Of a DNA stretch of 64,000 bases, positions 9,701 through 50,091 are shown piece by piece. Position 1 is the first letter of the stretch. Each line of letters opens with the position of its first letter. The position numbers and the translations under genes were made by a program. The notes under the pieces were generated by a model. It saw only the letters and a list, made by a program, of their open reading frames with translations. It searched no databases and was not told where the DNA came from. The stretch comes from Novipirellula galeiformis. Lineage in GTDB: Bacteria > Planctomycetota > Planctomycetia > Pirellulales > Pirellulaceae. The DNA lies in assembly GCF_007860095.1 (NCBI RefSeq), contig NZ_SJPT01000002.1, positions 310,001 through 374,000 of the forward strand. Direction: 5' to 3'.

Positions 9701-10482
9701 GACTCCGCGGCGAGGTCATCGATTAATGTGAACTCAATATCCGCGGACATGCTGCCCGCAGGTATCGTCAACGGGCTGCTCAAAACGGTGAAATCGGTCC
9801 CTTCCGTCGCGGTTCCGGACAACGTGAAGGGAACGATCACATCTTCGTTAGAAACTTGTGATAGCGACACGTTCACGCTCACCGTGCCTGCGTCTTCGAG
9901 CTGAGACTGCATCTCGGTTGTCATCGTGACCACCGTCTCGCTCGCATCGGAGACCCTCAGGATCACGTCGCCGTAATCGGTAATCGGAAGCGAATTGGCC
10001 TCGGCATCGACCACTAGCGTTCGATGATCCTGAGCCACTCCAGCCGAATTGATCGTCAAGCGGTAATCCCCAGCGACGAGCGGAACCATGACATCAAATG
10101 TGCCAAGACTGCGCGTCGGGGGAGCACTGATCGCGGTCTCGGCCGAACTAGAGACAATCGAATCACCCTGCTCGCGGTTGATCATCGCGTCAATGAATTC
10201 AGGGAACGCTTCGGACTGCAGAAATTCATCGATCACCAATGAATTGGCACTATTGGCGAAGTTCAATTGGTAACCACGGACCGCCTGCTCGGCCGACGTC
10301 AACGTCGCTTCGAATCGAACCGTCGATCCGCCGCTGGCGGTCACGATCGTGGTCCCGTTCTCTTCGGTCGCCCCGCCCAAAGCGGGCAATAAGTCGACGA
10401 CCGCGAGCAATCGTCGATCTTCAAGCAATTCGGCACTCAGCTGCCGACGTTGGACGTTTCTTCGCGTGATTCGACGACTCAT
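6793..10482 (-). CDS. Calx-beta repeat protein with dockerin domain
   Basis: 1229 residues from the ATG at 10482. The N-terminus MSRRITRRNVQRRQL followed by LLEDRRLLAV is the LEPR-XLL-type motif that marks exported planctomycete giant proteins. After a unique domain of about 180 residues come seven Calx-beta repeats of about 105-110 residues, each ending in a Ca2+-binding ...TI(V/L)DND. A variable domain follows, then a type I dockerin with two Ca2+ loops (DVDGSGETTTLDALRVVNQL and DVNADGRVSALDALQVINYL). It is probably a calcium-rigidified cell-surface or secreted adhesin-like protein, with the dockerin as docking or processing module. An ATG 17 codons upstream is possible but would put charged sequence before the motif. 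Confidence 0.9.
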   Translation of the reverse strand: MSRRITRRNVQRRQLSAELLEDRRLLAVVDLLPALGGATEENGTTIVTASGGSTVRFEATLTSAEQAVRGYQLNFANSANSLVIDEFLQSEAFPEFIDAMINREQGDSIVSSSAETAISAPPTRSLGTFDVMVPLVAGDYRLTINSAGVAQDHRTLVVDAEANSLPITDYGDVILRVSDASETVVTMTTEMQSQLEDAGTVSVNVSLSQVSNEDVIVPFTLSGTATEGTDFTVLSSPLTIPAGSMSADIEFTLIDDLAAESAETIVVTLSTPIGARLGADVVHTLHIVDNDDGTPTAVLSLESPTVQENAGTVNMTVTLSSASEFDVTIPYTVSGSATRDTDFVITPDMIMIPSGQTTATLEIAVTDDFQLENNETVIVRLDPPTNAKLGSPNRQVLTIIDNDQTPPPTVSFRTAALTVGESVGSVSLDVFLSAASDAPITVPLTVSGTATPNTDFTISPNQITFAAGQISASIIVNVIDDTAIEGNETVIVTLGTPTGALLGEIPTKTLTISDDDKAPPPKINIVNSAIRVEEGNKVVIVTVSLSEPTETFVEVPFTITGTATTLKDYASLTDRVGFAAGQVLRSFKLHIFEDNLAEEEETMIVTLGTPNLGELGDVTSTTITIVDNDLVGDYPKVSFSTSQMMVSESNPLVWVTATLSILAPEVIKVPITVTSTATDGSDYVLSQRMLVFERGSSTAALPIEIVNDDQIEPTENIVLTILPPEGLNLGENPTQTISIFDNDSPLPNQPSVGFSTTAQSVNEDDGTISVAVVLTSPSDHDVLIPFVATGTARNGHDFTISASPLLIAAGRTSGTIVVNVIDDKAVDPDETVSITLQTPTGATLGDSITHTITIVDSDSPLPSKPTVNLTEVTRTVSEGDGAITVSVKLSKPSEDVVLVPFRVYGSAIQGSDFTIASNAFTIAPGETTASVTINLIDDTIFEGVETVTVSLDRPTGAKLGSSSTFTGTILDNDADQGDTIVRNPMDRANVIVASSRSTAVLFSATENTELLVGFVETASATTRVRLYDGDMNQIASEAAGLLRASLTADASYALIFEASPVDQTIFVRSSAGANTLSGASINNLVEPTDVDGSGETTTLDALRVVNQLSRQADGESVVAGGLYYDVNADGRVSALDALQVINYLSRNAANRAQEELPGVVLSNINLGSDSPREPQAIPVLETKSPSHSGAEGEALAPQSEGALPELRETKESQIDAVIADIHDALQLLD

Positions 10483-11295
10483 GGCAGATAATCTCAGATC
10501 GATTTTTGAAACTCGGAAAGCAAAACAGGTCAACTGCGAAGAATAGGCAGAAAGACGAGAGGTGATTCTAATCCACCCGTTTAGCGTTCGCCAGCAGGAT
10601 CTGGGGTGAGCCCCGTTGATCGAGGTCGAGCGTCGCGTTCCTTTTGGGAGACCCTATTGGGTGATTGGCCACGTTTTACCGTCGCTTGACCCGCGCGTTG
10701 GCAATCACCGTCAAGGCAACCTAATCGAATTCACCGCCGCCGAGGTAGCGAATCGAAACACGACATCACGGTGGCTTCATACGCGTCCGTAGCTTCGCAC
10801 CCCCCTTTTTCGCCGAAAATCATCACCCGCAGCGTTATCGAGAGCCCGAGTCCTGCGTGATCATCCCTTGCGGACGCGCCAGCCGTAGAAAGCCAGCGGT
10901 AGAAACACGCGTGGGCTTAAGAAAATCGCCCAACGTGAAAACAAAGGCAGCGTCCCAGGTTGAGAAAAGCGGCCCCGAAACGACGCGTGGGGCTCTAGCT
11001 CGACATCTGTCAAGCGGTACTATCGAGAACGTGCGGGAGAGTAGCGATTGGCTGCTTCTCGATTTCCAAGGTCGATGGTTCAGGTCCGATGGTTCCAGGG
11101 GCCGATGGGAAACGGGCACGATCGGAATCACGCCAGTACGGTTGCCGTGGTTCGTCGTCGCCGCCGATCCCGATCTCGTGAGAAGCAGAACTCACCCACG
11201 GCCATCCCCCGCCGAGAAAGGCGGGGAATGGATGGTTGTTGCGCGGACGAACCCTGTATTGCAATGATCGTTGTCGATCGCAATGAGCATGCGCT
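10483..11295. other. Intergenic region, no recognised gene
   Basis: About 810 bp lying upstream of the Calx-beta gene and past the end of the next leftward gene. The open frames (for example 10857-11267) overlap each other on both strands and have biased Arg/Ser/Pro composition. I support none as a gene and see no RNA. Confidence 0.45.
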
Positions 11296-12039
11296 CTATC
11301 GCAATGAGATCGCGTCTTGCAGTGGCTTCAAGACGCTGCCGACCAAGTATTCGTCAATCAGATCGCGTCCCAGCGCGACAAGCCGATCGTACTCATGGAC
11401 GTACGTTTCGTCGGGACCGAGGCTATCGTAACGGCGAACGGTCAAATAAACGCTAATCGGTTCTTCGCTAAAATCACCGGTTCGCACTTGGTAGGCATTC
11501 GTACGCGATTCAAAGCTGATCCGGCACTGGGTGCGGCACTCTTCATCGAGCGAAAATTGGATCGCCGGTTCATGCGAAAGCACCTTGCCGTACGGCATGT
11601 TCATGAATCCTTGCAAACCAGGAGCCACCCCGACCACTTCCGAGAGAATGTCGTTGTGATTGCCGCGGTAGGCGAAATCAAATCCGAACATCACGCTCAG
11701 CGATTCGCAATCGAGCGGACTGGCCGACAACTCATACGGAATCAGCTCCAAAACGGTACGATGTAAATCGTCGATCGCTTCGTTGGAGTCCGGATTGACG
11801 ACACCCGAGTTGACTCGTTTCAGTTCGGTCGAAACCCAGCGATACGCCCCTGCTTCTTTTTCCTCTTCTAAGACAAATTCGTTTTTTTCACGCCCGTAGA
11901 AGTTCTGCATCTTCGGATAACGGCGGCGGACCTGCTCAAAAAAGTGGAGAATCGATTCCCGGCCTTTGGGCAGTTCCATCTCCGTCGTCAGAATCATGTT
12001 TAAGTAAAAGTCGTCGCTAAACGCAGCATATCCGTTCAT
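11296..12039 (-). CDS. Conserved hypothetical protein
   Basis: 247 residues with balanced, globular composition. There is no signal peptide or membrane helix. Mixed alpha/beta segments such as LILTTEMELPKGRESIL-like and SVMFGFDFAYRGNHNDI are seen, but I do not recognise a domain. An AAAGGTGA ribosome binding site sits just before the ATG at 12039, which supports the start. It is flanked on both sides by more than 750 bp of non-coding sequence, so it is a single-gene unit. Function unknown. Confidence 0.75.
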   Translation of the reverse strand: MNGYAAFSDDFYLNMILTTEMELPKGRESILHFFEQVRRRYPKMQNFYGREKNEFVLEEEKEAGAYRWVSTELKRVNSGVVNPDSNEAIDDLHRTVLELIPYELSASPLDCESLSVMFGFDFAYRGNHNDILSEVVGVAPGLQGFMNMPYGKVLSHEPAIQFSLDEECRTQCRISFESRTNAYQVRTGDFSEEPISVYLTVRRYDSLGPDETYVHEYDRLVALGRDLIDEYLVGSVLKPLQDAISLR

Positions 12040-12834
12040 TCGTCACCTTTCGTGTCGCGTAATGCTTTTCGGGGTGGCAGCCAGCACGGTGAATAGACTG
12101 GATACCACGTTAATGGGTTCACAACGGAACCACGACGACATGTCGGTTAAATCATTAAGATGATGCGCTCCTCCGCGTTGGGCGTTATGGCTCTACTCCA
12201 TTAGTTTACGCGTAAATCAGTAACGGTTGAACCTCTGGATGAGCCCTTTTCTTGGTTATCACAGGGCTTCGGTGCTAAACAAGCGGGCGAACCAGTGGAC
12301 CTCCGCCGTTCTCCGGCGACGGCTCTAAAAGTCTAAATGAATAGGCCAACCTTCCCCCTCTGCTGGCCCCCCACTGCTGGAACGTGCCGAAAGTGTGTCC
12401 ACTACTTCGGGGGGCAACCCCTCTTTTTCGCCTTACCAACGAGGTTGCCCGACGAGCGGCCTGCGGATTCCGTCCTTCGCTGAAAATCGTGTCCTTCGTT
12501 GAGAAATGGTTCGCTAAAAGAGGGATGGGAATGACAAACCGAGCGCGTCAGCGAGAGACCACGCGTCGGCTCGACATCGCTCGCATCCCCTTCGGGGTAT
12601 TTAACCGAAAGGCTCGAATCGTGCTTGCCTCGTTGCGAAATTACGTCGGTGGGCAAAGCGTCTCAAACCGATTCCAACGCGATACTGTACACTGGACCGT
12701 TGATGCTTGGCAGCCTGGGCTAGGCCACGAAGTCTAAAATTGGAATCTCGCCCCTTCTGCGGCATCGTGATCACGACTCCCGATGAAAATCACGCGCTGG
12801 TCCGTTGCCGAGCGTCCTGGTTCCCCCGTTCAGA
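12040..12834. other. Intergenic region, divergent spacer
   Basis: About 795 bp between the leftward hypothetical gene and the rightward sulfatase. The frame 12384-12737 is not supported by composition. Nothing recognised. Confidence 0.45.
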
Positions 12835-14283
12835 ATGGTCAAGATGTTCACTCACCCGATCACCGTTTTCGTTCTCGGCACGGCACTATGGTTGGTAAGC
12901 GTTGCCGCAGCCGCCGAGAATTCGAGTGCAGAGACGCCGGCGACGAAACAGCCGAACATCGTCTTCATCTTCGCCGATGACATGAGTTACAACACGATTG
13001 CCAGTCTAGGGAATTCGGAAATCGAGACGCCCAACCTCGACCGGTTGGCGCGGCGAGGGACGACGTTTACGCACGCCTACAACATGGGATCGTGGAGTGG
13101 TGCGGTGTGCGTGGCCAGCCGAACGATGCTGAATTCGGGACGTTACATTTGGAATGCGAACGCGATCTACAAAACGTCCGAACACGAACGGAACGCCGGT
13201 CGTTGGTGGAGCGAGTTGCTGAAGTCCGCGGGTTATCGAACCTACATGACCGGCAAATGGCACTGTACCGCCAGTGCGGAAAAGGCGTTTGACGTCGCTC
13301 GCGACATCCGCCCCGGCATGCCCAAAGATTCCGCAGCCGGATACAGCCGCCCCGCCGCTGATGGCACGGATCCCTGGTCACCGTCGGATCCGAAGCGAGG
13401 CGGCTATTGGCAAGGTGGCACTCATTGGAGTGAGGTGGTAGCTAACCATGCCGAAGACTTCCTGCGCGATGCCGCCGCTCAAGCCGATCCGTTCTTCATG
13501 TATTTGGCGTTCAACGCCCCGCACGATCCACGTCAATCGCCGCAATCGTACGTCGACCGTTATCCCAGCGAATCGATCGCAGTGCCAGCGAATTTCCTGC
13601 CCCTGTATCCGTACGCCGATGCGATCGGTTGTGGCAAAAGGTTGCGTGACGAGCGGCTCGCTCCATTCCCACGCAGCAAACACGCCGTCCAGGTGCATCG
13701 CGGCGAGTACTACGCATTGATCACCCACATGGACGAACAGATTGGCAGGATCTTGAAGGCGGTGGAGGCATCCGGCAAAGCTGATAACACTTGGATCTTC
13801 TTTACCGCCGATCATGGCTTGGCAGTGGGGCAGCATGGATTGTTCGGAAAACAAAATATGTACGACCATAGCCTCCGTGTGCCGTTCATCGCCGTGGGGC
13901 CTGGAGTGAAAGCGAACGCGAAAATTGAGCAACCGATTTACTTGCAAGACGTGATGCCAACGACGCTGGAGCTCGCCGCAACCGAGAAACCTGAATACGT
14001 TGAGTTCCATTCGTTGCTACCGATGCTCAATGGGGCGGACAGCGAGAATGCCGCAATTTACGGTTGCTACCTCGACCTGCAGCGGAGCATTCGCACCGAG
14101 AAGTATAAACTCATCGTCTATCCCAAAGCCAAGGTCGTGCGTCTATACGACGTGCAAGCGGATCCCGACGAGAAGCACGATTTAGCGGGCGACGCGTCAA
14201 TGCAAGCGACCGTCGACAGGTTGTTTGCCCAACTACAAGGGTTGCAAAAATCGATGAACGACGAGCTTGTCTTGGAACGCTAA
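12835..14283 (+). CDS. Secreted sulfatase, formylglycine type
   Basis: 482 residues from the ATG at 12835. A signal peptide (VFVLGTALWLVSVAAAAE) precedes the alkaline-phosphatase-fold sulfatase domain: metal ligands in NIVFIFADDMSYN, the formylglycine motif CVASRTMLNSGRY (Cys-X-Ala-X-Arg, with Ala for the commoner Pro), TGKWH, and the distal metal site FFTADHGLAVGQHGLFGKQNM. Enzymes of this group hydrolyse sulfate esters of polysaccharides in the periplasm or outside the cell, and planctomycetes carry many of them. An anaerobic-type maturase or FGE elsewhere in the genome must convert the cysteine. The substrate cannot be read from the sequence. A second ATG three codons downstream is an equal alternative start. 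Confidence 0.9.
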   Translation: MVKMFTHPITVFVLGTALWLVSVAAAAENSSAETPATKQPNIVFIFADDMSYNTIASLGNSEIETPNLDRLARRGTTFTHAYNMGSWSGAVCVASRTMLNSGRYIWNANAIYKTSEHERNAGRWWSELLKSAGYRTYMTGKWHCTASAEKAFDVARDIRPGMPKDSAAGYSRPAADGTDPWSPSDPKRGGYWQGGTHWSEVVANHAEDFLRDAAAQADPFFMYLAFNAPHDPRQSPQSYVDRYPSESIAVPANFLPLYPYADAIGCGKRLRDERLAPFPRSKHAVQVHRGEYYALITHMDEQIGRILKAVEASGKADNTWIFFTADHGLAVGQHGLFGKQNMYDHSLRVPFIAVGPGVKANAKIEQPIYLQDVMPTTLELAATEKPEYVEFHSLLPMLNGADSENAAIYGCYLDLQRSIRTEKYKLIVYPKAKVVRLYDVQADPDEKHDLAGDASMQATVDRLFAQLQGLQKSMNDELVLER

Positions 14284-15696: not shown

Positions 15697-16470
15697 TCAA
15701 GCGTTTGCCAGTTTAGGAATCGCCGAAAATTCGGGGCCAGAACAAGGCTTGAAATCAGCAGGCCAGCAACCATGGAGTCGACACAGAAGGCGTTGCTGGA
15801 ACGGTGCATTGGGATTGAGCCGTTGCACAAACAGATTGACTGAACCGCTGGGGCATTCCCGCAGTAATCGAGTCAGGTCATGGGCAAGATAACGAGGGGC
15901 ATAGCCAATCGGAGTTTTGCCTGCATCGATCGCCACTGCCATCGGGTCGACCGGATTGGAGGGCTCACAACGGAGGTGCAAGCGGTCCCCTGCATGCAGC
16001 TGAGCTACCACTGCATTTGCCTCGTCCGTCGCTAGGTGGAAACGCATCCCATGAACGAAGAAATAGTTAAGGTAACACCCCTGGTTGTCTGGAACTGGGC
16101 AGGGAAAGACTTCAATGGCGTCGGTTTTCTTGATTCCTTCACTGCGTTGCAGCAGCAGCAATGGTTCTGGAGGATCGGCGGGATCAAAACCATTCCAGCG
16201 CAAAAAGTCGGCGTACTCAGGACGCGACTTAGGAAGTAATCGGTTGACCAACATCGGGAATAATTCGGCGGAATGGTAGACGGCCTCCAAATCGGGCATC
16301 CCGTCAAAAGGGCGAAACCCCTCGGTGGATTTGGCACCCTGTGTGTAACAAAAACGATAGGATGTTTGGCCCGACCGCTCACGAAACGCGTCCAAACGCC
16401 CCACCGGTCCCCAATGAGGCATCGGTTTTTCCGTGTGCCAAGCGACGAATAGTGACTCAGTAGGGTTCAA
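15697..16470 (-). CDS. HIRAN-domain protein
   Basis: 257 residues if read from the TTG at 16468-16470, which overlaps the TGA of the upstream HipA-like gene (TTGA). The N-terminal half (PVGRL, YRFCYTQGAKSTEGFRPFDG, MVNRLLPKSRPEYADFLRWN) resembles the part that precedes HIRAN in bacterial proteins. The C-terminal half is HIRAN (LRCEPSNPVDPMAVAID, IGYAPRYLAHDL). HIRAN domains in HLTF/Rad5 proteins bind 3' single-stranded DNA ends. The frame is open 52 codons further upstream, but that extension overlaps the HipA-like gene by 160 bp and has poor composition. The coupling implies co-translation with the kinase. Confidence 0.78.
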   Translation of the reverse strand: MNPTESLFVAWHTEKPMPHWGPVGRLDAFRERSGQTSYRFCYTQGAKSTEGFRPFDGMPDLEAVYHSAELFPMLVNRLLPKSRPEYADFLRWNGFDPADPPEPLLLLQRSEGIKKTDAIEVFPCPVPDNQGCYLNYFFVHGMRFHLATDEANAVVAQLHAGDRLHLRCEPSNPVDPMAVAIDAGKTPIGYAPRYLAHDLTRLLRECPSGSVNLFVQRLNPNAPFQQRLLCRLHGCWPADFKPCSGPEFSAIPKLANA

Positions 16471-17405
16471 GGGTGCGATGATCCAGGATGAAGTAGACGA
16501 TCTTGATTGATCAATAATAGTTCCAGGGTAAATTCTTTTGCCAGCGGTGTCATCCTCGATGCAGGAACTCGATCGATGATTCGCTCGAAATCTTGCCTTG
16601 AGATCCTTTCTAAATGCTCTAGCCAATGCCCCGCGGCGATTGGTCGAATTGCTTGCCAGGCATGAAAGCAGGCCAAGCTTCGCAGGGTCTTACGGTCCGA
16701 AACGGATCCGTAAAACCCCGATGCGGCACGTCTCGCAAATGCAGACATCTCAACGCGCCGGTTCGCGGATCGTAGGCGACGAGCTCGTTTCTCGTCAGGT
16801 TCGTTCCGTGCTAAACCAGCCCCATGATCAAAGGTGGGCGCCAGCCAAGTTGTCTCATGCCGCAAAGCCCCCCAATTCTGGTGATGGCGGTCTTGATTGG
16901 CAATCAACGTATCGAGCAATACGTAGCCTACAAAGACATCCACCGCAGTGTGACATTTGTGAGTCGGTTGCCAACACGAATCCGACGGAGGAGGGGCCAA
17001 CTTCTCTACCACTTCAGCGACCGCGCCAACCGTATGCTCTCGGACACCATAATTTTGTTCTGTGTTCGCGGGATAGGTCGAGTCGGCCTCTAACATCAAT
17101 TGGTTTCCTAAGACCAGTGTCAGCGGCTTGGCGGCAAGGTTCACGCAGATCACCCCAGGCAAATCTTTCTGTGTTTCGTGAGCTAGCTGATAGCTCACAT
17201 GAGGTAGTCCAATCGCATCACAAATTTCGCCGGCGATCATCTCCGCCCAATCTTCCCCCGTACCGCGATTCTCAGCTTTGAACAAGGTTCGCTGCTCATT
17301 ATGCCTGAACCAAAACTTCGGTTTCGTGCCTAATTGCTCAAGGTCTTCCGACTGGTCGGCGCTGATGTGAACGATTGAAAATTCTCCTCGCTCAGGATCT
17401 TGCAT
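16467..17405 (-). CDS. HipA-like kinase domain protein
   Basis: 312 residues. Kinase features of the HipA/CtkA fold are seen: a lysine after the beta hairpin (RTLFKAENRG, Lys43), a helix with EMIAGEICDAIGLP, the catalytic loop ANQDRHHQNWG (Asp172, Asn177) and the metal-binding aspartate in APTFDHGAGLA (Asp193). HipA proteins are Ser/Thr kinases of toxin-antitoxin modules that phosphorylate translation or other core factors. There is no HipB-like DNA-binding antitoxin here; the coupled downstream partner is a HIRAN protein instead. It is the same strand as, and 180 bp after, the ASCH-TPR gene. Target and toxicity are unknown. Confidence 0.78.
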   Translation of the reverse strand: MQDPERGEFSIVHISADQSEDLEQLGTKPKFWFRHNEQRTLFKAENRGTGEDWAEMIAGEICDAIGLPHVSYQLAHETQKDLPGVICVNLAAKPLTLVLGNQLMLEADSTYPANTEQNYGVREHTVGAVAEVVEKLAPPPSDSCWQPTHKCHTAVDVFVGYVLLDTLIANQDRHHQNWGALRHETTWLAPTFDHGAGLARNEPDEKRARRLRSANRRVEMSAFARRAASGFYGSVSDRKTLRSLACFHAWQAIRPIAAGHWLEHLERISRQDFERIIDRVPASRMTPLAKEFTLELLLINQDRLLHPGSSHP

Positions 17406-17584
17406 GGATTTTTCTCAATCTGTTTTTTTGTCCCACAACATTTTTCCTTATTCTTACAGCACAGCTGATATCGTATTGCCGCTAGCCACTGGCTTCCTCA
17501 TATGGACTTGATCGATCTCGAACGTCTGTAGTTTTTTTGCTGGCGGAGGTGGAGGTGGAGGTGGAGTGTGCATCTTTTCTAACA

Positions 17585-18511
17585 TCAGCGACCGGCTTTG
17601 ATCGTTTGCAGCAATTGTTTCGCACTATTACTTTCGGGTTCTTGCCGCAGTGCTCGTTCGCAAGTCGCTTGCGCATCCTCTGGGTTTCCTAGTTGCCAAT
17701 GTGCCTCGGCAATTACCTCAAGCATGCTGCTGTTATCGTCTTCGAGTTGCAAGGAGCGACTTGCCGCCGCCAACGCCTCTGGCCACTTCCCGCACTTTTT
17801 GTAAGCGAATGCAAGCACGATCCAACCGAAAGCAAAATCCGGATCGATCTCCACCGCTCGTTGAGCTATTGGGCAAGCGGCTTCAGGAGTATCGTCGAGC
17901 TCGGCGCAGGCTTTGGCCACCAGGGCATCGGGATGGTTGGGGGCTAATTCCATCAAGCGATCGACGGCGACTTTGGTGGCTTCCATGTGATTTCGCGTAT
18001 GCAAACATTCGTCAAACAAGGCCAGGTAGTTGCCCACCGGATCGGGATCGCCGTTCATCACGTCAGCCAAAATCGCAGCCGTCGCGTCTTGCGTGACATT
18101 AAGCTCATACGTTTCTGCGGCGAGGATTTGGCGCTGCAGCGGCGTCGGCATTTTGAACAGATTCAATTTACCTTTCATTGCGATCGGCTGTTTTAGAAAA
18201 CGTCCGTTGGAAACGCGCCAGCAGTAGGGCCCCGAAGCGAACGGATCGGCCTCGTGTTGCCGTCCATACGAGGTGATATCCTCGATATCAACCAAGCCAA
18301 TGACCGCGCCATAGGTGAAATAGTCTTTGCTCAGTTCTCCAGGATTGAGTTCGCGGCGCAGTTCGTTCACATACTGCGGGCTGGTCGAGGCATGAATCGC
18401 GATCGTACCCCGGCGATCGGTAGTCCAGGTGCGATTTTCGATCGTTTTTAGGTTCGAGCAAATCGCCCAGGCAAAAGGTTGCCGCACCGAAAGTCCACGA
18501 AGCTCATTCAT
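17585..18511 (-). CDS. ASCH (PUA-like) domain fused to TPR repeats
   Basis: 308 residues. The N-terminus is an ASCH domain (SVRQPFAWAI, KTIENRTW, RGTIAIHAS, YGAVIGLVDI, YCWRV), a PUA-like fold that binds RNA or modified nucleotides. From about residue 160 the protein is TPR-like helix pairs (ALVAKACAELDDTPEAACPIAQRAVEIDPDFAFGW and two more), which suggests a protein partner. The ATG lies only 4 bp after the stop of the hsdS relic (TGA CATC ATG), so the gene was probably a member of the former restriction operon. The fusion is unusual; no function is assigned. Confidence 0.8.
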   Translation of the reverse strand: MNELRGLSVRQPFAWAICSNLKTIENRTWTTDRRGTIAIHASTSPQYVNELRRELNPGELSKDYFTYGAVIGLVDIEDITSYGRQHEADPFASGPYCWRVSNGRFLKQPIAMKGKLNLFKMPTPLQRQILAAETYELNVTQDATAAILADVMNGDPDPVGNYLALFDECLHTRNHMEATKVAVDRLMELAPNHPDALVAKACAELDDTPEAACPIAQRAVEIDPDFAFGWIVLAFAYKKCGKWPEALAAASRSLQLEDDNSSMLEVIAEAHWQLGNPEDAQATCERALRQEPESNSAKQLLQTIKAGR

Positions 18512-18515
18512 GATG

Positions 18516-18944
18516 TCACACCGGTTTGGGGTTCTTTTTACGTCTCGTTTTGGCTTCGTCCCCGTTGCGAGCGGCGCGGATGCGGGCGAGCAGTTCGGAT
18601 GCGGGCTCGTTACTTGGATCTTTCGGTACTAACTCGCTTGGCTTGATTCTTGGGCTGAGTGATCGAGGTATTGGCATTGCGAAAGATCGCCTGGATGCGG
18701 CCCGAGGCTTCGTTACCAAGATGGACTAGCATGGCGCGATAGAAGGCCAATTGATCGATGCCTTCTTGAGATTCCAGATCGCTCCAACGGTAACCCTTGG
18801 GAAGCTGAAATTCTTGATTCGTCTCCTTCATCATCTTCAAGAACAACAGATAGGTCAGCTCGGTGACGTATTCGTGATACCATCGTCCCTCAGGACGTGG
18901 CACAGATTCCAGAGTTTAGCAACAATGTCTTGAGTCGTGGTCAC
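18516..18944 (-). pseudogene. hsdM'-'hsdS deletion relic (type I restriction-modification)
   Basis: Reading leftward from the GTG at 18944, the N-terminus of a type I methyltransferase subunit is seen (VTTTQDIVAKLWNLCHVLRDDG). After a short deletion and frameshift near 18875 the match continues as YHEYVTELTYLLFLKMMKE and LVHLGNEASGRIQAIFRNANTSI. At about 18650 it switches frame to the universal tail of specificity subunits (SELVPKDPSNEPASELLARI...). The catalytic part of hsdM and nearly all of hsdS are deleted. The family differs from the intact hsdM at 44.2 kb, so this is an independent, dead system. Confidence 0.85.
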
Positions 18945-18990
18945 CTAAGCAAAATCCTTCTCGTGATTCCTGGGGGCATTCGGGGGCGAA

Positions 18991-20022
18991 TCAGTTCCCC
19001 GGCAATTTCGGTGTCTTACCGATATAACCTGTTGGGGTGAGTACTTCTTCGTTGAGCCATTGCGGCACTGGACCATCGTATCCCTCGAAGTCCAACATCG
19101 CACCCCGTCCACTGAATGCAAGTAGCACGTCACGCAAATCACGAGGGGAAAGTTCGATGTCGTTTAGCTTAACGGTCTGTGTTGAGGGATCGACGATGAT
19201 TTGGCAGCGAGGGTACATCGAATCGCTTTCCGGTCCTCCGTTGTCGTAGATCTGCAGAATCCTTTCAATAATTAACTTTTCCGTCGCGTCCGAAACTTCC
19301 GTATCGCCGGCAATAAAGCCACAGAGCATCACGTGATAGCTGATCCCCAGTTTGGACGTCTGAACGTCGTACCCCGAATCTGTAGGCTCGATTTCCTGGT
19401 ATTGAGAAAAGGCACTGAAAATCTGAATCATCTCTCGTGTTGTGTAGCCACGTTGCTTCCTAGCCCGGAACGCGATCTGCACGAGTTCTTCTGTTTTGCG
19501 TTTGATGTATTCAACTGTTGACTCTCCGGAGACACGAGTGTCTGCGTGATCAACATCCTTGGAAGGGATGAAATAGTATTTCTCGGCCCCATAGTCGTAT
19601 GCAATTCCAATACTTGCAGGTTGAGTCAGGCCCGTGAATCGTTGTTCGCCCTGCATCGCCGCCATCTGTTTTTTTACGGTCGATTCTTGCTCGGTAATTT
19701 GTCTGCGAAGTTCGACAATCTCCTGTTGTTGACGAAGCATGTTTTCACGCTGTTGCTTCATTTCGGTTTGCTGCTTTTGTAAACGTTCGGACAGTTCGGC
19801 AACTTCCTCGGCGCTTAGAAACTCGACTTCGTCGACTTTGACGACCTCGACCGGTTTGACCTCTTCGATCTTGGCTAGGTCGGCGCGAACGCGTTGGCTG
19901 ACTTCGATCGCCAGCATCATCACGAACAGAACGAGTACTACGAGTGCGCAGAACACCAAATCCGCAAATGTTTCGTGCGTATTGCCATGGCTCTCCGAAT
20001 AGCGATCATTCAACGATTTCAC
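18991..20022 (-). CDS. MotB/ExbD-like stator protein
   Basis: 343 residues from a GTG that overlaps the end of the MotA-like gene by 17 bp. One membrane helix (about 18-41, ETFADLVFCALVVLVLFVMM) carries Asp21 at the position of the proton-conducting aspartate of MotB, ZorB and ExbD. A coiled coil follows (about 65-120, Gln/Glu/Arg-rich), then an extracytoplasmic domain. That domain lacks the OmpA peptidoglycan-binding signature; its end (CQIIVDPSTQTVKLNDIELSP, DLRDVLLAF) is more like the ExbD/TolR domain. With the MotA-like partner it should form a proton-driven stator complex. It is intact although the restriction genes on both sides are broken. Confidence 0.8.
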   Translation of the reverse strand: MKSLNDRYSESHGNTHETFADLVFCALVVLVLFVMMLAIEVSQRVRADLAKIEEVKPVEVVKVDEVEFLSAEEVAELSERLQKQQTEMKQQRENMLRQQQEIVELRRQITEQESTVKKQMAAMQGEQRFTGLTQPASIGIAYDYGAEKYYFIPSKDVDHADTRVSGESTVEYIKRKTEELVQIAFRARKQRGYTTREMIQIFSAFSQYQEIEPTDSGYDVQTSKLGISYHVMLCGFIAGDTEVSDATEKLIIERILQIYDNGGPESDSMYPRCQIIVDPSTQTVKLNDIELSPRDLRDVLLAFSGRGAMLDFEGYDGPVPQWLNEEVLTPTGYIGKTPKLPGN

Positions 20023-21070
20023 CGGCTACGACCTCCTGTAGATTGTCTCTCGCGTTCTTGCGTAATCGCGGGGTGATACGGACTTCGGTGAGTGAAGCGA
20101 TGTAGGAAACAAAGTGGTCAACGTTGGATGCATACACATTGTTCAGCACTCGAAGTACGATGCTGCCCAAGATCGCTCCTACCAACGTTGTATAAAACGC
20201 GGTGCCAAGTCCCGCCATCGTTTCCCGCATGCCGGACATCAAATGGGATGCGTCTCCCGATTCGCCCAATGAATCAAGCGTTCCGCTGAGCCCATTGGTC
20301 ATCACGATCAAACCGACAATGGTTCCAATCAACCCGAGTGAGACGAGGACACCGGAAAGCGTATCGACGATCTTGGCTCGGGCCATCATTTTGCTGTACA
20401 GCAACGTCATCAAACTGTCTTGCGACACGTTAGGGTCATGTCTGGCAATTCGCACGAGGTCTTGGATGTGTTGATGAAAGACACCGGCCGGAGGAGCCTT
20501 GACGATCTCTCCGAATCCTCGGGGCGATTTCAGCTTTTTGACAAGGAATGCCGCACAGACAAATTCGCTGCGTAGGCCTTTCACCGCACGGAAGTTCAGC
20601 ACCACTCCGAAAATAAACAATGCAAAAATGACCACGCACAATCCGCTGGTGTCCGTCACAATGGCATTGAACAAGTGGCGTCCAGCTGCGAACACGAGCA
20701 GCAGCCCGATAACAACAGAGTAAATGATCCATTCACGCAGCGGATCGCGGTCGAGTTGCAAGTCACGAGCACGTCGAGCTTCGTCCGCAAGCTTTTGGGC
20801 CAAGGCTTCGTTAGCGCCTTCTCGTTTCCGCTGCGCCGCGGCTTCTCGCTTCTTCTGTTCAATCAGTTGCTTCTGGGCCTCGACAACCTTTTCCTTTTCG
20901 CCGGGAACAACCATGGGAGTTTGACAGTCGGGACAATGGTCGTAGTTACCCGCCTCCATGAGTGAGGAGGTCAATCGAACCCCGCAATGCAAACAGTCGT
21001 ATTTGACACTTGATCCGGCCACGTTAGACCGCACCTCGTATTTGGGATTGGGTTTTAAAGTTGTATCCAT
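20006..21070 (-). CDS. MotA/TolQ/ExbB-like proton channel with N-terminal zinc ribbon
   Basis: 354 residues. A zinc ribbon (C26-x2-C29 and C46-x2-C49) is followed by a highly charged Lys/Glu/Gln helix (about 57-108), two membrane helices (about 113-131 and 142-160), a cytoplasmic segment and the MotA/TolQ pair of helices (about 238-258, SGVLVSLGLIGTIVGLIVM; 287-309, LGTAFYTTLVGAILGSIVL). The stator fold is clear. The ribbon on the cytoplasmic end is unusual and could bind nucleic acid or a partner. AAAGGA precedes the ATG. The nearest functional analogy is ZorA of Zorya defence, but ZorA has a long C-terminal tail and no such ribbon. Confidence 0.82.
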   Translation of the reverse strand: MDTTLKPNPKYEVRSNVAGSSVKYDCLHCGVRLTSSLMEAGNYDHCPDCQTPMVVPGEKEKVVEAQKQLIEQKKREAAAQRKREGANEALAQKLADEARRARDLQLDRDPLREWIIYSVVIGLLLVFAAGRHLFNAIVTDTSGLCVVIFALFIFGVVLNFRAVKGLRSEFVCAAFLVKKLKSPRGFGEIVKAPPAGVFHQHIQDLVRIARHDPNVSQDSLMTLLYSKMMARAKIVDTLSGVLVSLGLIGTIVGLIVMTNGLSGTLDSLGESGDASHLMSGMRETMAGLGTAFYTTLVGAILGSIVLRVLNNVYASNVDHFVSYIASLTEVRITPRLRKNARDNLQEVVAGEIVE

Positions 21071-21119
21071 TTCATCCTTTCAATCGCTGGCCATGACGTA
21101 AACCAAAGCTTCTAAAACA

Positions 21120-21539
21120 TCACGCGACCACATCCCAAATCTCCTCGGCGATCTGATGCAATAGCTCATCGAGTTCACCGTTGAATATGCTGTTTAATCG
21201 TTGATAGCCGCCCTGCGCTCCGAACTGGCCGCTGTCAACGGTTTGGTGATCGACAACGACTTCTCGCTCGAGTTGTTTGCCAATCCGCTTGAGCCATTTT
21301 CGTTGGGGATCGGTCCAGGTACGACTGGCCACGATCTTAGAGATCGCCTGTTTGACTCGTTGCTCGTAAGGAAGCTGCAGCTCGCCCAATTGGCGGATTT
21401 TCATCATCGCGGTGTTCGGATTGTCCAGCGAATACCGCTCTGCACGTGCGCCCAATTCGCCCAACAGGGGCTCGATCTTGCTCACGAAATCGAAGTTGGG
21501 GGAACGGAGCGGTATCCCGACTTTGTCGCTGTCGTTCAA
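21120..21539 (-). pseudogene. hsdR relic, internally deleted
   Basis: The first about 50 residues match the N-terminus of EcoEI-type restriction subunits (NFDFVSKIEPLLGELGARAERYSLDNPNTAMMKIRQLGE, the DUF4145-like start). The rest is the extreme C-terminus (LPYEQRVKQAISKIVASRTW, RKWLKRIGKQL, VVDHQTVDSGQFGAQGGYQRLNSIF, GELDELL). Nuclease and helicase domains, roughly 700-800 residues in the family, are missing without breaking the frame. The remaining frame starts with a TTG after a T-rich run. A fused mini-protein could still be made, but it cannot be a restriction enzyme. Confidence 0.85.
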
Positions 21540-21875: not shown

Positions 21876-22181
21876 ATGCAAATTAAAGATTCGGATGCGG
21901 TGGCCAACGGCATTAAGGCTTGGGGATGGACAATTCGTACGCTTCGAGAGCGTGGCGCCTTGATCACGGCACCCGGCTTAGCAGACGCCATCAAGGTTCC
22001 TGATGATGTTCGAGTAGGGGGCGTTTACGCTGGTGCCGATTCGGACCAGGCTACTGAGGATGCATTCCAGGTTTTTAAGGATAAAGATATTGATGCAGAA
22101 TGCGTTCCCATCGATTCGATCCAAGAGTATGACGAACCGGCATCGGCATTCGCCCGAGATGAAACGCGAATTGAGGACTGA
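21876..22181 (+). CDS. Small hypothetical protein
   Basis: 101 residues starting MQIKDSDAVANGIKAWGW. Composition is protein-like and acidic (pI low), with alternating strands and helices (VRVGGVYAGADSDQ, FQVFKDKDIDAECVPIDSI). No family recognised and no clear ribosome binding site. It stands alone on the plus strand at the outer edge of the decayed restriction operon. It could be spurious. Confidence 0.4.
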   Translation: MQIKDSDAVANGIKAWGWTIRTLRERGALITAPGLADAIKVPDDVRVGGVYAGADSDQATEDAFQVFKDKDIDAECVPIDSIQEYDEPASAFARDETRIED

Positions 22182-22949: not shown

Positions 22950-23373
22950 AACGTCGTTCCAATCGAGAACGGAAAGTTATGGTGAATGCGCTGCGTCCCC
23001 AACCTTTCCCGCTCCAACGCAAGCTGCACTACTCTTTAGCGTTTGTCGCCGTCCAGGATCGTTTCCACGCAAGACGACCTTCCTTGGGCAATGTCGCGTT
23101 CGACTTGCGATGCAAATGGCAGTTTCGATCCCAGACCCTGCGATGGACGCCTTGAGAGCGATCGCAGTGCAACCGTGGTTTCAGTTAGTCCTTGCTGATA
23201 CCACCGTTGGACGATCTTATCCCACGGTTGGGCGCGCCGCCGACATGCGTCGCGGGTGCCGTGCAAACTTAGCGGGCGGACGCCTCTCACCTATTAGCTG
23301 GGGAGGCTGACCTGCGAATGTCGGCCACTCGGAAACGGAGTGTATTGCCGCGACATCGCGAAGAGAAAAACAG
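22950..23373. other. Intergenic region, no recognised gene
   Basis: Short frames on both strands (23036-23290, 22841-23155) lack convincing composition. It lies between tRNA-His and the rhomboid gene, both leftward. Confidence 0.4.
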
Positions 23374-23448
23374 GGTGAGTGAGGGGACTCGAACCCCCGA
23401 CATTTGGAATCACAATCCAACGCTCTAACCAACTGAGCTACACCCACC
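23374..23448 (-). tRNA. tRNA-His (GTG anticodon)
   Basis: Minus-strand cloverleaf: acceptor GTGGGTG pairs with CACTCAC, D arm GCTCAGTTGGTTAGAGC, anticodon stem TTGGA/TCCAA around loop TTGTGAT (anticodon GTG), T arm GGGGGTTCGAGTCCCC. The extra 5' G (position -1, at 23448) that marks tRNA-His is encoded and faces C73 at 23374. CCA is not encoded. Confidence 0.96.
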
Positions 23449-44183: not shown

Positions 44184-45875
44184 ATGACTGCATCGGACGC
44201 ACAAAAATTCCTGAAAGACCTCGACAAGAAACTTTGGACGGCAGCGGACAAGTTGCGGGCCAATCTCGATGCGGCGGTTTATAAACACGCGGTGCTGGGA
44301 CTGATTTTCTTAAAGTACGTCTCCGACTCGTTTGAGCTACGGCAGCAGGAGATCGAATCACAGCTCCGCGATCCCGAGCACGACTACTACCTCGATCCGG
44401 CCGACCATGACGATGCCGAATACGAGTCAATGCTCGCGGACGAACTCGAAGTTCGCGACTACTACCTGGAAGAAAACGTGTTCTGGGTTCCGGCTCTGGC
44501 TCGTTGGAAAACCATTCAACAGAGTGCTCCGCTCGCTGCCGGAACCGAAATCACTGTCAAGAACGGGGCGAGCAAGCAGTACAAGATCACTTCGATCGGC
44601 AAGTTGATCGACGATGCGTTAGGTGAAATCGAAAAGGAAAACCCGAAACTCAAGAGCGTTCTGAACAAGAACTACACCCAGCTTCAGCTTCCTCAGCCAA
44701 GCTTGATCGGCCTGATCAATCTGATCGCTGAAATCCCGTTCCAGCACGAAGACCTCGACGCCAAGGACATCCTTGGCCACGTCTACGAATACTTCCTCGG
44801 CCAGTTTGCTCTCGCCGAAGGGAAAAAGGGCGGTCAGTACTACACGCCCAAGTCGATCGTCAACCTGGTCGTGGAAATGCTCGAACCGTTCAAGGGGCGA
44901 GTCTATGACCCGGCCATGGGCAGCGGCGGCTTCTTTGTTTCCAGCGAAAAGTTCATTGAAGAGCACGGAGGCAAGATCGGTGACGTGTCGGTCTATGGAC
45001 AGGAATCAAATCCGACCACGTGGCGACTGGCCGCGATGAACATGGCGATTCGCGGGATCGATTTTAATTTTGGCAAGGAACCTGCCAACACGTTTACTCA
45101 CGACCTGCATCCGGACCTGCGAGCGGATTACGTGATGGCCAACCCGCCATTCAACATGAAAGAATGGTGGGACGGAAAACTCGAAGGCGATCCGCGTTGG
45201 GAACACGGCGACCCACCCCAGGGCAACGCCAACTTTGGCTGGCTGCAGCACATGCTGTATCACCTTGCCCCCAAAGGCTCGATGGCGCTGTTGTTGGCCA
45301 ATGGCTCGATGAGTAGTAACACCAAGGGAGAAGGCGAGATTCGCGAAACGATTGTCAAAGCGGACCTCGTCGAATGCATGGTCGCCTTGCCCGGCCAGCT
45401 CTTTACCAATACACAAATCCCGGCCTGCATCTGGTTCCTGACCAAAACGAAGCAGAAGCGAGGCCGAGGGAAAAACGCCTACCGCGACCGAGTCGGCGAA
45501 GTGCTGTTCATCGACGCCCGCAAGCTGGGCTACATGGTAGACCGAGTCCTACGGGCTTTCACCGACGAAGACACCGAAAGGATTGTCAGCACCTTTCATA
45601 CGTGGAAGCGTGATAGAGACAACTACCAAGATGTGGCCGGCTTCTGCAAAAGCGCAACCTTGGATGAGATCGCCGAACATGGCCACGTGCTGACGCCGGG
45701 TCGCTACGTCGGAGCCGAAGAGGTGGAAGACGACGGCATCCCCTTCGCGGACAAGATGGGCAAGCTTACCGCTGAACTTGCTGATCAATTCGCGGAGTCT
45801 GTCAAACTCCAAAAGGCGATTCGTAAAAACATGAAGGCTCTCGGCTTCGAGCTTCCTGCCGGGGGACAGAAATGA
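44184..45875 (+). CDS. hsdM: Type I restriction-modification methyltransferase subunit HsdM
   Basis: 563 residues. N-terminal HsdM_N helices (LWTAADKLRANLDAAVYKHAVLGLIFLKYVSDSF) and the N6-adenine methylase core with motif I DPAMGSGGFF (about 242) and motif IV NPPF (Asn320) are present, with QYYTPKSIVNLVVEML between. It methylates adenine within the bipartite target set by HsdS. The C-terminus is ADKMGKLTAELADQF...KLQKAIRKNMKALGFELP. It overlaps rhuM by ATGA. First gene of the operon hsdM-rhuM-hsdS-TIGR04141-hsdR. Confidence 0.96.
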   Translation: MTASDAQKFLKDLDKKLWTAADKLRANLDAAVYKHAVLGLIFLKYVSDSFELRQQEIESQLRDPEHDYYLDPADHDDAEYESMLADELEVRDYYLEENVFWVPALARWKTIQQSAPLAAGTEITVKNGASKQYKITSIGKLIDDALGEIEKENPKLKSVLNKNYTQLQLPQPSLIGLINLIAEIPFQHEDLDAKDILGHVYEYFLGQFALAEGKKGGQYYTPKSIVNLVVEMLEPFKGRVYDPAMGSGGFFVSSEKFIEEHGGKIGDVSVYGQESNPTTWRLAAMNMAIRGIDFNFGKEPANTFTHDLHPDLRADYVMANPPFNMKEWWDGKLEGDPRWEHGDPPQGNANFGWLQHMLYHLAPKGSMALLLANGSMSSNTKGEGEIRETIVKADLVECMVALPGQLFTNTQIPACIWFLTKTKQKRGRGKNAYRDRVGEVLFIDARKLGYMVDRVLRAFTDEDTERIVSTFHTWKRDRDNYQDVAGFCKSATLDEIAEHGHVLTPGRYVGAEEVEDDGIPFADKMGKLTAELADQFAESVKLQKAIRKNMKALGFELPAGGQK

Positions 45876-46936
45876 CCGAAAACCTGCCGTCCCCAGCAGA
45901 GGGGCAATTCCTTTTCTACGATACCGAAGACGGGAAAACCCGGGTTCAAGTTCTGCTGGACGGTATGACATGCTGGATGCCTCAGAGCCACATTGCCGTG
46001 CTCTTTGAGACTACCCCGCAGAATGTCACCCAGCACATTAAGAACATCTATGCCGAGGGAGAGCTGGACGAATCCGCAACTTGTAAGAATTACTTACAAG
46101 TTCAAAAAGAGGGAAATCGCGAGGTAAAACGCAATCTGCTGATCTTCAACCTGGAGGTTGTTATTGCTATCGGATACCGCGTCCGAAGCTCACGAGGTAC
46201 GCAATTTCGCCGCTGGGCCACCTCCACGCTCAATGAGTTCCTCGTCAAAGGGTTCGTGCTTGACGACCAGCGTTTGAAAGCTGCCAAATCAACCTTCGGC
46301 AAAGACTACTTTGACGAACTCCTCGAACGCATTCGCGACATTCGCGCGTCCGAGCGACGGTTCTATCAAAAGATCACCGACATCTACGCGACTGCGTCTG
46401 ACTACAACAAGGACGCCGAAGTCTCGCGGGAGTTTTTTGCGACGGTTCAGAACAAACTGGAATGGGCCATCACCGGAATGACCGCAGCAGAGCTCATTAA
46501 GGATCGTGCCGATGCAACTCAGCCCAACATGGGTTTGCAAACGTGGAAGAACTCACCTTCGGGAAAAATCCGTAAAACGGATATTACCGTCGCAAAAAAC
46601 TACCTATTCCAAGAAGAACTGAGTGACCTGAATCGTATCGTCACGATGTACCTCGACTACGCAGAAGACCAAGCCAAGCGTCAGCAACCGATGACGATGG
46701 CACAGTGGGCATCCAAGCTGGATGCCTTCCTTGCTTTTAACGATCGCTCCGTATTAAAGAACGCAGGAAAAGTCGAAAAGAAGGTCGCGGATGCATTGGC
46801 AATCGAGCAGTACGAGCAATACAAGACCGAGCAACGACGAATCGAAGCAACGGAACCGACCAGCGACTTCGATCGCTTCGTTGACGATATCGGCAAGTTA
46901 AATCCTCCAGAGGGCGAGGAGGGCAGCGATGCTTAG
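45872..46936 (+). CDS. rhuM: RhuM-family protein
   Basis: 354 residues. Family features: FLFYDTEDGKTRVQVLLDGMTCWMPQSHIAVLFE, TPQNVTQHIKNIY, NLEVVIAIGYRVRSSRGTQFRRWAT, LNEFLVKGFVLDD and FYQKITDIYATASDYN. RhuM proteins were named from a Salmonella pathogenicity island. They have a helix-turn-helix-like start, recur between type I restriction genes, and have no settled biochemical role. It overlaps hsdM by 4 bp, and a relic of an hsdM tail follows 8 bp after its stop, which shows that it was inserted into the operon. Confidence 0.92.
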   Translation: MTENLPSPAEGQFLFYDTEDGKTRVQVLLDGMTCWMPQSHIAVLFETTPQNVTQHIKNIYAEGELDESATCKNYLQVQKEGNREVKRNLLIFNLEVVIAIGYRVRSSRGTQFRRWATSTLNEFLVKGFVLDDQRLKAAKSTFGKDYFDELLERIRDIRASERRFYQKITDIYATASDYNKDAEVSREFFATVQNKLEWAITGMTAAELIKDRADATQPNMGLQTWKNSPSGKIRKTDITVAKNYLFQEELSDLNRIVTMYLDYAEDQAKRQQPMTMAQWASKLDAFLAFNDRSVLKNAGKVEKKVADALAIEQYEQYKTEQRRIEATEPTSDFDRFVDDIGKLNPPEGEEGSDA

Positions 46937-46944
46937 CCGAAAAG

Positions 46945-47061
46945 ATGGAGGGCTTGACCCGCGAGTTAGCCACTCAATTTCACGAGTCCGAAAAACTGCA
47001 GTCAGCGATCCGCGACAACATGCAAAAGCTGGGCTTTGCCTTGCCGAAGGTGGTGGAATGA
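46945..47061 (+). pseudogene. Orphan hsdM 3' tail after rhuM
   Basis: A 38-residue frame, MEGLTRELATQFHESEKLQSAIRDNMQKLGFALPKVVE in two parts (MEGLTRELATQFHESEKL, QSAIRDNMQKLGFALP), lines up with the last residues of HsdM (MGKLTAELADQF, LQKAIRKNMKALGFELP). The frame is open a little further upstream across the rhuM stop (LAEK). It is the end of a second, diverged hsdM allele, left between rhuM and hsdS. Confidence 0.85.
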
Positions 47062-47115
47062 GTCGCATATTGCGAAGCCAAGCTACTGACGCTTCAGATC
47101 GTTCGGAGAAAGCAG

Positions 47116-48489
47116 ATGTCTAATCCGACGGTCGGCGAAAGTCCGGATCATTGGGAGTTTACAACTCTTGGCGAAGTCTGCGATCGCGGAGGCGGGAGTA
47201 TTCAGACCGGACCTTTTGGAAGTCAATTGCACGCATCGGACTATGTCGATGAGGGCATTCCATCCATCATGCCGGTCAACATCGGCGACAACCGCTTGAT
47301 CGAAACGGACATCAAGCGGATCACCGAGGAAGACGCGGAACGCCTTAGTAAACACCTTGTTGTGCCCGGTGACATAATCTACAGCCGCCGTGGAGATGTC
47401 GAACGCCGTGCACTTGTTCGCGAAGAACAACGTGGCTGGTTCTGTGGAACGGGCTGCATCAAAGTCCGACTTGGCGAAGGTGTAGTCGATCCCGCGTTCG
47501 CGTCGTTCTATCTAGACCACCCGAACGTGCGTCAATGGATTGTGCAGCACGCGGTTGGCGCAACGATGCCAAATTTGAATACCAGCATCATGAAGGCGAT
47601 CCCGTTTGTACTGCCGCCTCCAGAAGAACAGCGAGCTATCGCGTCGATCCTTGGATCATTGGACGACAAGATCGAGTTGAACCGTCGGATGAATGCGACG
47701 CTGGAGTCTCTTGCGCGGGCGATCTTCAAGAGTTGGTTCGTCGATTTCGACCCGGTCAAAATCAACGCGGGCCAGATGCCTGCGGATGGACACGACCCAA
47801 CGATTCTCAACCTTTTCCCCTCCACCTTCCAAGACTCAGGCATTCCTGAAGGTTGGGTATCCACCACATTGGGAGACGAAGTCGACTTTCAAACAGGAAA
47901 CGCGTTCAAAAGCAAATCGTTTACAAACGAACCACCCGGAACACGATTGGCAAGAGGAATGAACGTCAAAGAGGGTGTCTTCTTTTGGGGTAACCAAACG
48001 CGTTATTGGCCCGAAGTGACCGACGACATCGAACCCTATTTGCTTCGTGCTGGCGATGTGTTGATCGGCATGGATGGTTCAAAGGTAGGCAAAAACTGGG
48101 TTCGGGTTCGTGAAGTCGACCTCCCGTGTTTGCTGGTGCAGCGAGTCGCCCGATTGCGAGCCGCCGATTCAGTTGGTGAGAACTTCCTGTGGATACTCTG
48201 CGGTAGTGAGACGTTTCGCCGATACGTCGACTCGGTGAAGACAGGTACTTCGATTCCACACATTAGCGGCGGACAGATCAAGAGTCTCTCCTTTGTGCGA
48301 CCGCCCAAGGGAGATGATCGTGTTTTCCATGAGTTCGAGAACATCGTGAGTGCTTTCGCAAATCAACACGACAAGAATGCAAGTGAGTCAGTGTCGCTAA
48401 GTCTGCTTCGCGACACCCTCCTTCCCCGCCTTCTCTCCGGCGAACGCCCCGTTCCAGATTCTCTCCTACCGATTGAGCAGGTGGTCTAA
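47116..48489 (+). CDS. hsdS: Type I restriction specificity subunit HsdS
   Basis: 457 residues with two target-recognition domains (WEFTTLGEVCDRGGGSIQTGPFGSQLHASDY; WVSTTLGDEVDFQTGNAFKSKSF), each followed by a conserved helix (LPPPEEQRAIASILGSLDDKIELNRRMNATLE; FENIVSAFANQHDKNASESVSL). The two half-sites fix the bipartite DNA target; the sequence cannot be predicted by eye. A GGAGAAAG-like site precedes the ATG. The stop overlaps the next start by one base (TAATG). Confidence 0.95.
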   Translation: MSNPTVGESPDHWEFTTLGEVCDRGGGSIQTGPFGSQLHASDYVDEGIPSIMPVNIGDNRLIETDIKRITEEDAERLSKHLVVPGDIIYSRRGDVERRALVREEQRGWFCGTGCIKVRLGEGVVDPAFASFYLDHPNVRQWIVQHAVGATMPNLNTSIMKAIPFVLPPPEEQRAIASILGSLDDKIELNRRMNATLESLARAIFKSWFVDFDPVKINAGQMPADGHDPTILNLFPSTFQDSGIPEGWVSTTLGDEVDFQTGNAFKSKSFTNEPPGTRLARGMNVKEGVFFWGNQTRYWPEVTDDIEPYLLRAGDVLIGMDGSKVGKNWVRVREVDLPCLLVQRVARLRAADSVGENFLWILCGSETFRRYVDSVKTGTSIPHISGGQIKSLSFVRPPKGDDRVFHEFENIVSAFANQHDKNASESVSLSLLRDTLLPRLLSGERPVPDSLLPIEQVV

Positions 48490-50084: not shown

Positions 50085-50091
50085 ATTCGCA

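Follow-up and report, generated by a model that had tools for sequence, protein, structure and literature searches.

A rare motor-type membrane protein pair among accessory modules stacked at a dead type I restriction operon of Novipirellula galeiformis

In a 64,000-nucleotide stretch of the 7.4-Mb genome of Novipirellula galeiformis (the window; contig NZ_SJPT01000002.1, C2:310001-374000), remnants of a type I restriction-modification (R-M) operon alternate with five uninterrupted genes, two of which encode a MotA-like and a MotB-like membrane protein. On balance, we favor the view that four independently occurring modules have been stacked here, in a variable region by a tRNA-His gene, and that one of them may be a new accessory module built on a motor driven by the proton-motive force (PMF). 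Module 1 would be the scar of the R-M operon, module 2 a two-gene PMF motor in the slot between hsdR and hsdM, module 3 a lone ASCH-TPR gene, and module 4 a toxin-antitoxin-type pair consisting of a hipIN kinase and a HIRAN protein. The arrangement is real and unusual, and the rare motor pair, which we infer to work like other 5:2 motors, may serve defence.

The case for stacking comes from the company that homologues of each module keep elsewhere. Across 29 fetched regions (four with the MotA/MotB pair, six with ASCH-TPR, nine with hsd genes and ten with hipIN), they keep to their own partners, MotA being accompanied by MotB in 4/4 regions, HipI by HipN in 10/10, and HsdR by HsdM in 9/9. We therefore regard the stack in the window as a local assembly. 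ASCH-TPR genes are present in 9/199 genomes, and six loci were fetched from five of the eight other genomes; the gene was re-found in four of these, unaccompanied by other window modules, while the other two (L057 and L058) are weak controls, since no ASCH match at 1e-5 was found among the open reading frames (ORFs) chosen there. No ASCH-TPR gene was found in the four other MotA/MotB regions (22-59 kb each) and no MotA/MotB pair in the six ASCH-TPR loci, and we accordingly reject a joint module of the two, into which the original prediction had merged them.

Matches to the HsdR relic occur in 13/199 genomes (12 besides that of the window), and nine of these 12 supplied hsd operons for comparison. 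In every one hsdR precedes hsdM, and hsdS was identified after hsdM in eight; L060 has an hsdM frame of just 171 aa. The gap between hsdR and hsdM is an accessory slot of this operon family: it is empty in four operons and holds genes or gene pieces in the other five (a TPR protein; a PDDEXK-like protein; an unknown protein with DUF429; Fic pieces; and an unknown protein). The original proposal of an accessory defence module survives in part, given that the pair occupies a slot used in 5/9 operons and lies among defence-type genes in 3/5 of its occurrences; the ASCH-TPR gene drops out of it. Recurrence of the pair between hsdR and hsdM, suggested then as a check, was seen in 0/9 fetched loci, and an R-M operon lying near the pair in another genome belongs to another lineage. 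A type I operon with an embedded accessory gene has been described for EcoprrI/PrrC (available text of PMC3874165); there, as here, accessory sequence lies within an hsd operon, but here most of the R-M sequence is gone and the embedded genes encode a pair of membrane motor proteins. No description of MotA/MotB-type genes in hsd operons was recognised in the literature searched (title and abstract level, few subscription journals), and such a pair is an addition to the gene types known from the type I accessory slot.

Comparison with two congeners places the locus in a variable region. G013 matches the window at 10037-14278 and again from 23360, at the tRNA-His gene, on a single contig, and in G077 these blocks are matched on separate contigs. 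The anchors enclose 9.1 kb in the window and about 24 kb, largely taken up by long frames, in G013. In both congeners, the window's glyoxalase and rhomboid genes match other contigs.

The MotA-like protein exceeds the Pfam cut-off for MotA_ExbB (33.8 vs 22.9 bits). CxxC motifs at residues 26 and 46 resemble a zinc ribbon, and hydrophobic stretches follow at 110-166, 233-265 and 287-314, the last of which ends 40 residues before the C-terminus. In the predicted model (mean predicted local distance difference test score, pLDDT, 78), the last helix spans 274-352. The model matches PomA, ExbB, TolQ and MotA chains (best E=1.9e-3, probability 1.00, low TM-scores), with Foldseek probabilities near 1 for ExbB and TolQ, and no ZorA chain was found among the 50 best fold matches. 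Thr290, Thr294 and Thr295 are invariant in all nine rows of an alignment that leaves out L024, where the MotA-type frame as chosen was misaligned. This protein is not alone in having a CxxC-rich N-terminus: an ExbD-family protein of the same genome (L149) has one too. In addition, a 249-aa frame at G000:C2:111243-111527 (L002) is similar, at 41% identity, to the N-terminal region of the MotA-like protein.

Its partner has no Pfam match above cut-off (best E=0.018) and was identified through its position, a transmembrane (TM) helix containing Asp21, and its homologues; Asp21 is invariant in 10/10 alignment rows. AlphaFold2 predicts one TM helix, a long helix at 71-128 and a folded region at 137-331 (mean pLDDT 81, mostly above 85 in the folded region), from an alignment that leaves out the distant relative L021. 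The whole-chain model found no PDB match at E<=0.001, in a search that the long helix may have hampered, and a MotB-related PDB chain, 8vvn_B, aligns with the MotB profile over residues 17-60 only (E=1). The periplasmic end looks ExbD-like: the last ~100 residues align, at the expected place, with a profile of the ten ExbD proteins of the genome. The score is 27.6, and the highest of 150 column shuffles is 18.6 (hhalign probability 40%); when only five close rows are used, the figures are 23.2 and 18.7 (14%). No ExbD match (PF02472) was found in the protein by Pfam, and it is not among the ten ExbD matches of the genome at E<=10.

These features suggest a motor in which a pentamer of the channel subunit would most likely surround a dimer of the Asp21 helix and turn on proton (or sodium) flow. 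The long periplasmic part of the MotB-like dimer, with its long helix, unusual domain and ExbD-like end, may be an anchor or sensor on the envelope side, and the moving output would be a ring of five cytoplasmic N-termini, zinc-ribbon-like and helical, contributed by the MotA-like subunits. Such a motor would be analogous to Zorya. As described in the available text of PMC11890865 and PMC8565338, in the ZorAB stator, too, a channel subunit of the MotA/ExbB superfamily precedes a partner with one TM helix and a conserved TM Asp, and, as in some occurrences of our pair, defence genes lie nearby. In contrast, the long cytoplasmic C-terminal tail of ZorA is important for defence (available text of PMC11890865), whereas the MotA-like protein ends 40 residues after position 314 (of 354), and the window pair has a zinc-ribbon-like N-terminus and an apparently ExbD-like periplasmic end. 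ZorA models match the MotA-like protein at E=3.3e-8 in PADLOC, with the NCBIfam ZorA_2 score at 20.8 against a cut-off of 100 bits. No OmpA-like domain was found on the MotB-like protein at E<=1 in Pfam, or at E<=0.001 in the PDB search with the whole-chain model, and no zorC/D/E or zorF/G partners were present among the eight window frames scanned with PADLOC, all within 15697-21539. On the basis of the tail, the OmpA-like domain and the missing partners we reject membership of Zorya, and the kinship originally proposed is reduced to a shared MotA/ExbB superfamily.

Other PMF motors share different features with the pair. ExbBD and TolQR also combine a MotA_ExbB-domain channel subunit with a partner that has a TM Asp, and the C-terminal subdomain of the window partner may be of the ExbD kind as well; the window partner differs in its length (343 aa), in having an extra domain besides its long helix, and in its sporadic distribution. 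Pfam named no TonB or TolA among the genes of the locus, and no genome-wide partner search was made. Pairs of TolQ-like and TPH-vWA proteins (available text of PMC12204202) are likewise PMF motors in which a partner with a TM Asp bears an unusual periplasmic domain; the difference is that the folded periplasmic region in the window has no confident PDB match.

The pair is rare. Close homologues are present in 5/241 genomes of the family sample, which includes Pirellulaceae, each in a different genus: the window genome, Laterigemmans baculatus JC640 (G066), the Pirellulaceae metagenome-assembled genome SJ586 (G162), Planctomycetes bacterium SV_7m_r (G036) and G072. Identities to the window pair are 52-70% for MotA and 50-54% for MotB, and the two genes overlap by 4-17 nt in all five occurrences (17 nt in the window). 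In a sample of the phylum, 5/392 genomes match, namely the window genome and four distant ones, and a search of contigs of named genomes retrieved three relatives with an alignment as query and none with a single protein. No match was found among viral contigs (MotB and the MotA alignment), among plasmids (MotA and MotB), or among phages (MotA, the only subunit searched there). At one site the pair is present or absent as a unit: G103 has 331 bp where its congener G072 has 2.77 kb containing the pair, between flanks that are 93% and 89% identical. Another congener of G072, G006, has no MotA match, and the flanks of G036 and G162 are not collinear in the congeners searched for an empty site. 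A sixth homologue, in G164 (L021), is distant; there, a MotA/MotB-type pair is clustered with a GAP1-N2 protein, a kinase-TPR protein and a Ppx/GppA-like protein, and its partner subunit may be vWA-like, as in the TolQ-like/TPH-vWA pairs, judging by a sequence motif.

As a raw count, three of the five close occurrences, the window included, lie among defence-type genes. The scans covered part of the neighbours, and the outer flanks were compared with selected proteins only. In G066, genes near the pair encode DEAD/MrfA-type and UvrD helicases, an OLD-like AAA_15 ATPase and an RtcR_PspF2 CARF-AAA-HTH regulator (E=4.8e-160), and a type I R-M operon with AbiEii lies ~8 kb away; compared with L061, which belongs to the hsd operon family of the window, the HsdM of this operon is only 31% and its HsdR only 29% identical. 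The divergent side of the pair in G162 has an RtcR of the same type (50% identical to that of G066) and a similar ATPase (37%), and PDC-S40 is also present in this neighbourhood. RtcR, a CARF-controlled activator according to the available sources, faces a string of helicase, unknown gene, MotA and MotB in G066, with two genes in between, and directly adjoins MotA in G162. The regulator, the OLD-like ATPase and the gene that follows recur as a block on the divergent side of the pair in two genera (L018:13610-17716 and L020:1559-6876), and this block is possibly a defence unit of its own. Another OLD-like ATPase and partner, kin to the pairs at L018 and L020, follow the type I R-M operon of G066 (L173:6895-9800).

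The R-M genes of the locus survive as terminal fragments. Complete hsdR, hsdM and hsdS were not found at 15697-21539 by tblastn. The N end of the HsdR relic corresponds to residues 9-70 of one homologue and 15-55 of another, and the C end begins at residue 1063 or 1053 of homologues 1,145 and 1,141 aa long; because only these two ends match, in one frame, ~1,000 internal codons have been lost, and what remains is a single open frame of 139 aa. The hsdM-hsdS relic contains HsdM residues 4-24, a frameshift, HsdM up to residue 108 of 477, and then, in a frame different from that of the second HsdM stretch, HsdS residues 452-485 of 494. Decay of the relics gave no clear signal as a clock when divergence from homologues was compared with that among homologues: identity to nine homologues is 60-74% for HsdM residues 5-92 (59-100% among the homologues themselves), and the corresponding figures are 50-56% (49-98%) for the HsdR C end and 36-70% (40-98%) for the short HsdR N end. 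R-M death may therefore be recent, and with no clear hsd decay visible the open accessory genes require no selective explanation. Third-position excess over orthologues is seen in all five open genes; it speaks of selection along the orthologue lineages, not of the time since the R-M break. Across 15 orthologue comparisons pS is 0.72-0.88 and synonymous sites are saturated in 14, so that dN/dS since R-M death is not obtainable. The original claim that selection preserved the accessory genes after the restriction genes died is thus not borne out.

Taken as a whole, the anatomy, rarity and neighbourhoods of the pair make it, in our view, somewhat more likely than not that it is a sporadic accessory motor for stress or defence, Zorya-analogous in its working without being a Zorya. 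A bolder version is a tentative suggestion that we consider rather unlikely: the pair would be the core of a planctomycete defence or stress module that is new, powered by a stator and distinct from Zorya. This module would combine a ring of zinc ribbons in the cytoplasm with a periplasmic sensor ending in an ExbD-like part; it would have moved between defence islands and, in G066 and G162, come to lie divergent to a CARF-type RtcR activator. Several points weigh against the accessory-motor reading. The 3/5 count is a raw number to which no significance is attached. Among the genes scanned around the pair in G072 and G036, none is clearly defence-related (G072 has weak PDC-S48 matches, at 8e-4 and 1e-6). 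The difference between G072 and G103 has no repeats at its edges, and gain is therefore indistinguishable from loss. Sigma54-like sites upstream of the pair are near expectation, with one two-mismatch and three three-mismatch sites against ~0.7 and 2.2 expected; three of the four (the two-mismatch site and two three-mismatch sites) are upstream of MotA in G162 and one three-mismatch site is upstream of the helicase in G066, with none in the other eight of ten stretches, among them those of the window, G072 and G036. It is a real possibility, if a less than even one, that the pair is an ordinary envelope motor of the Tol/Exb type, which transduces force or energises transport and was acquired by chance in a region that tolerates insertions. 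The ExbD-like subdomain, the ExbB and TolQ fold matches, and the neighbourhoods of G072 and G036 point this way, as do two distant pairs in one genus that share a neighbour on different sides (cluster c22; NPCBM in the one scanned). However, presence in 5/241 genomes would be odd for a housekeeping motor, the genome has ten other ExbD-family genes, and three of the five occurrences lie among defence-type genes. Occurrence mostly outside defence loci, as a general Tol/Exb system, had been named as the observation that would tell against the original prediction; the ExbD-like end and the two occurrences of five where the scanned genes include no clear defence neighbour go part of the way towards it.

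The fuller original reading, a Zorya-like accessory module of the R-M operon formed by MotA/MotB with ASCH-TPR and kept by selection after R-M death, draws on the physical order, the tight spacing and the weak ZorA similarity; it is improbable in view of the separate occurrence of its parts (4 + 6 regions, and 9 for the slot), the absence of measurable decay in the relics and the lack of the features that define Zorya. More improbable still is that the hsdR and hsdM/S remnants are functional mini-proteins, such as a docking part from the HsdR C-terminus, and act together with the accessory genes. The open frame of the HsdR remnant and its protein-like divergence pattern would fit this, but two ends join in frame by chance one time in three, a frameshift interrupts the HsdM part, and the only short HsdR-type frames among the nine hsd loci are one of 274 aa (L059) and an extra one of 385 aa (L062). 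If the sporadic accessory motor that we prefer does protect against phage, defence would have recruited rotary PMF motors on more than one occasion, with parts that differ in both the cytoplasm and the periplasm, and protection would allow envelope sensing and motor output to be tested against each other as the essential element.

The features of the locus are collected in Table 1. The observation from which this work started, a dead restriction operon with open accessory genes, is confirmed with minor corrections. Both ends of hsdR are matched in one frame, tblastn and PADLOC agree on a fused hsdM-hsdS relic, and the ORF list for 15697-21539 shows the five accessory genes as uninterrupted leftward frames. 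Besides the motor pair there are three open genes (ASCH-TPR, HipA-like and HIRAN), rather than four, and the leftward orientation holds throughout; tight spacing, by contrast, is not uniform along the locus, because 179 bp separate the ASCH-TPR and HipA-like genes. A scan for promoters and terminators yielded no more sites than in shuffled sequence.

Table 1. Features of the locus, in leftward gene order, and the tRNA gene at its right edge (window positions).
Feature	Position	Strand	Evidence
hsdR relic (N-terminal and C-terminal ends, one frame)	21120..21539	-	EcoEI_R_C E=2.2e-17; tblastn of intact HsdR
MotA/TolQ/ExbB-type channel subunit, 354 aa	20006..21070	-	MotA_ExbB E=3.2e-8, hydropathy, CxxC, fold matches
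MotB/ExbD-type partner, 343 aa	18991..20022	-	alignments, AlphaFold2, fold search, ExbD profile match
hsdM-hsdS relic	18516..18944	-	PADLOC MTase_I 2.4e-27, Specificity_I 3e-8; tblastn
ASCH-TPR protein, 308 aa	17585..18511	-	TPR_14 E=1.3e-10; ASCH E=0.005, below cut-off
HipI-type short HipA-like kinase, 312 aa	16467..17405	-	PDC-M03A E=1.7e-102; HipA_C E=4e-6, below cut-off
HipN-type HIRAN protein	15697..16470	-	HIRAN E=1.7e-8; PDC-M03B E=1.5e-77
tRNA-His, right edge of variable region	23373..23447	-	ARAGORN

By its domain and family matches the kinase/HIRAN pair is of a known, toxin-antitoxin-type kind, hipIN (PADLOC PDC-M03), in which a short HipA-like kinase is followed by a HIRAN protein; as far as the available descriptions go, the window pair is an ordinary member with no notable difference. 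HIRAN scores above its cut-off (34.6 vs 24.7 bits) and HipA_C below (27.1 vs 30.5), and ASCH in the ASCH-TPR protein is likewise below (18 vs 21.2 bits in Pfam). The available text of PMC8262856 describes four short HipA-like kinase families of 279-321 aa, a range that includes the window HipI, with a HIRAN-domain protein as putative antitoxin and abortive infection as a proposed role, and that of PMC11706625 places HipA/HIRAN genes, which are predicted there to have phage defence functions, beside diDNase genes. PDC-M03 and PADLOC were not found together in one text in our literature search. HipI is present in 15/199 genomes (14 besides that of the window). The listed HIRAN ORF begins at 16626, and nine of ten homologue alignments start at ORF residue 53-58 (the other at 30); TTG at 16470, which would make HipI and HipN overlap by 4 nt, appears to be the likelier start.

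Among other observations, G037 has ASCH-TPR twice (L053 and L054) with shared neighbours (clusters c25-c29), as if a block had been duplicated. In the window, a 101-aa ORF at 21876-22181 (+) lies between the HsdR relic and the rhomboid gene. Farther along, at 44184-53385 (+) and ~22 kb from the dead operon, another type I R-M operon has open frames for HsdM (N6_Mtase), a RhuM-family protein, HsdS, a DUF6119 protein and HsdR.

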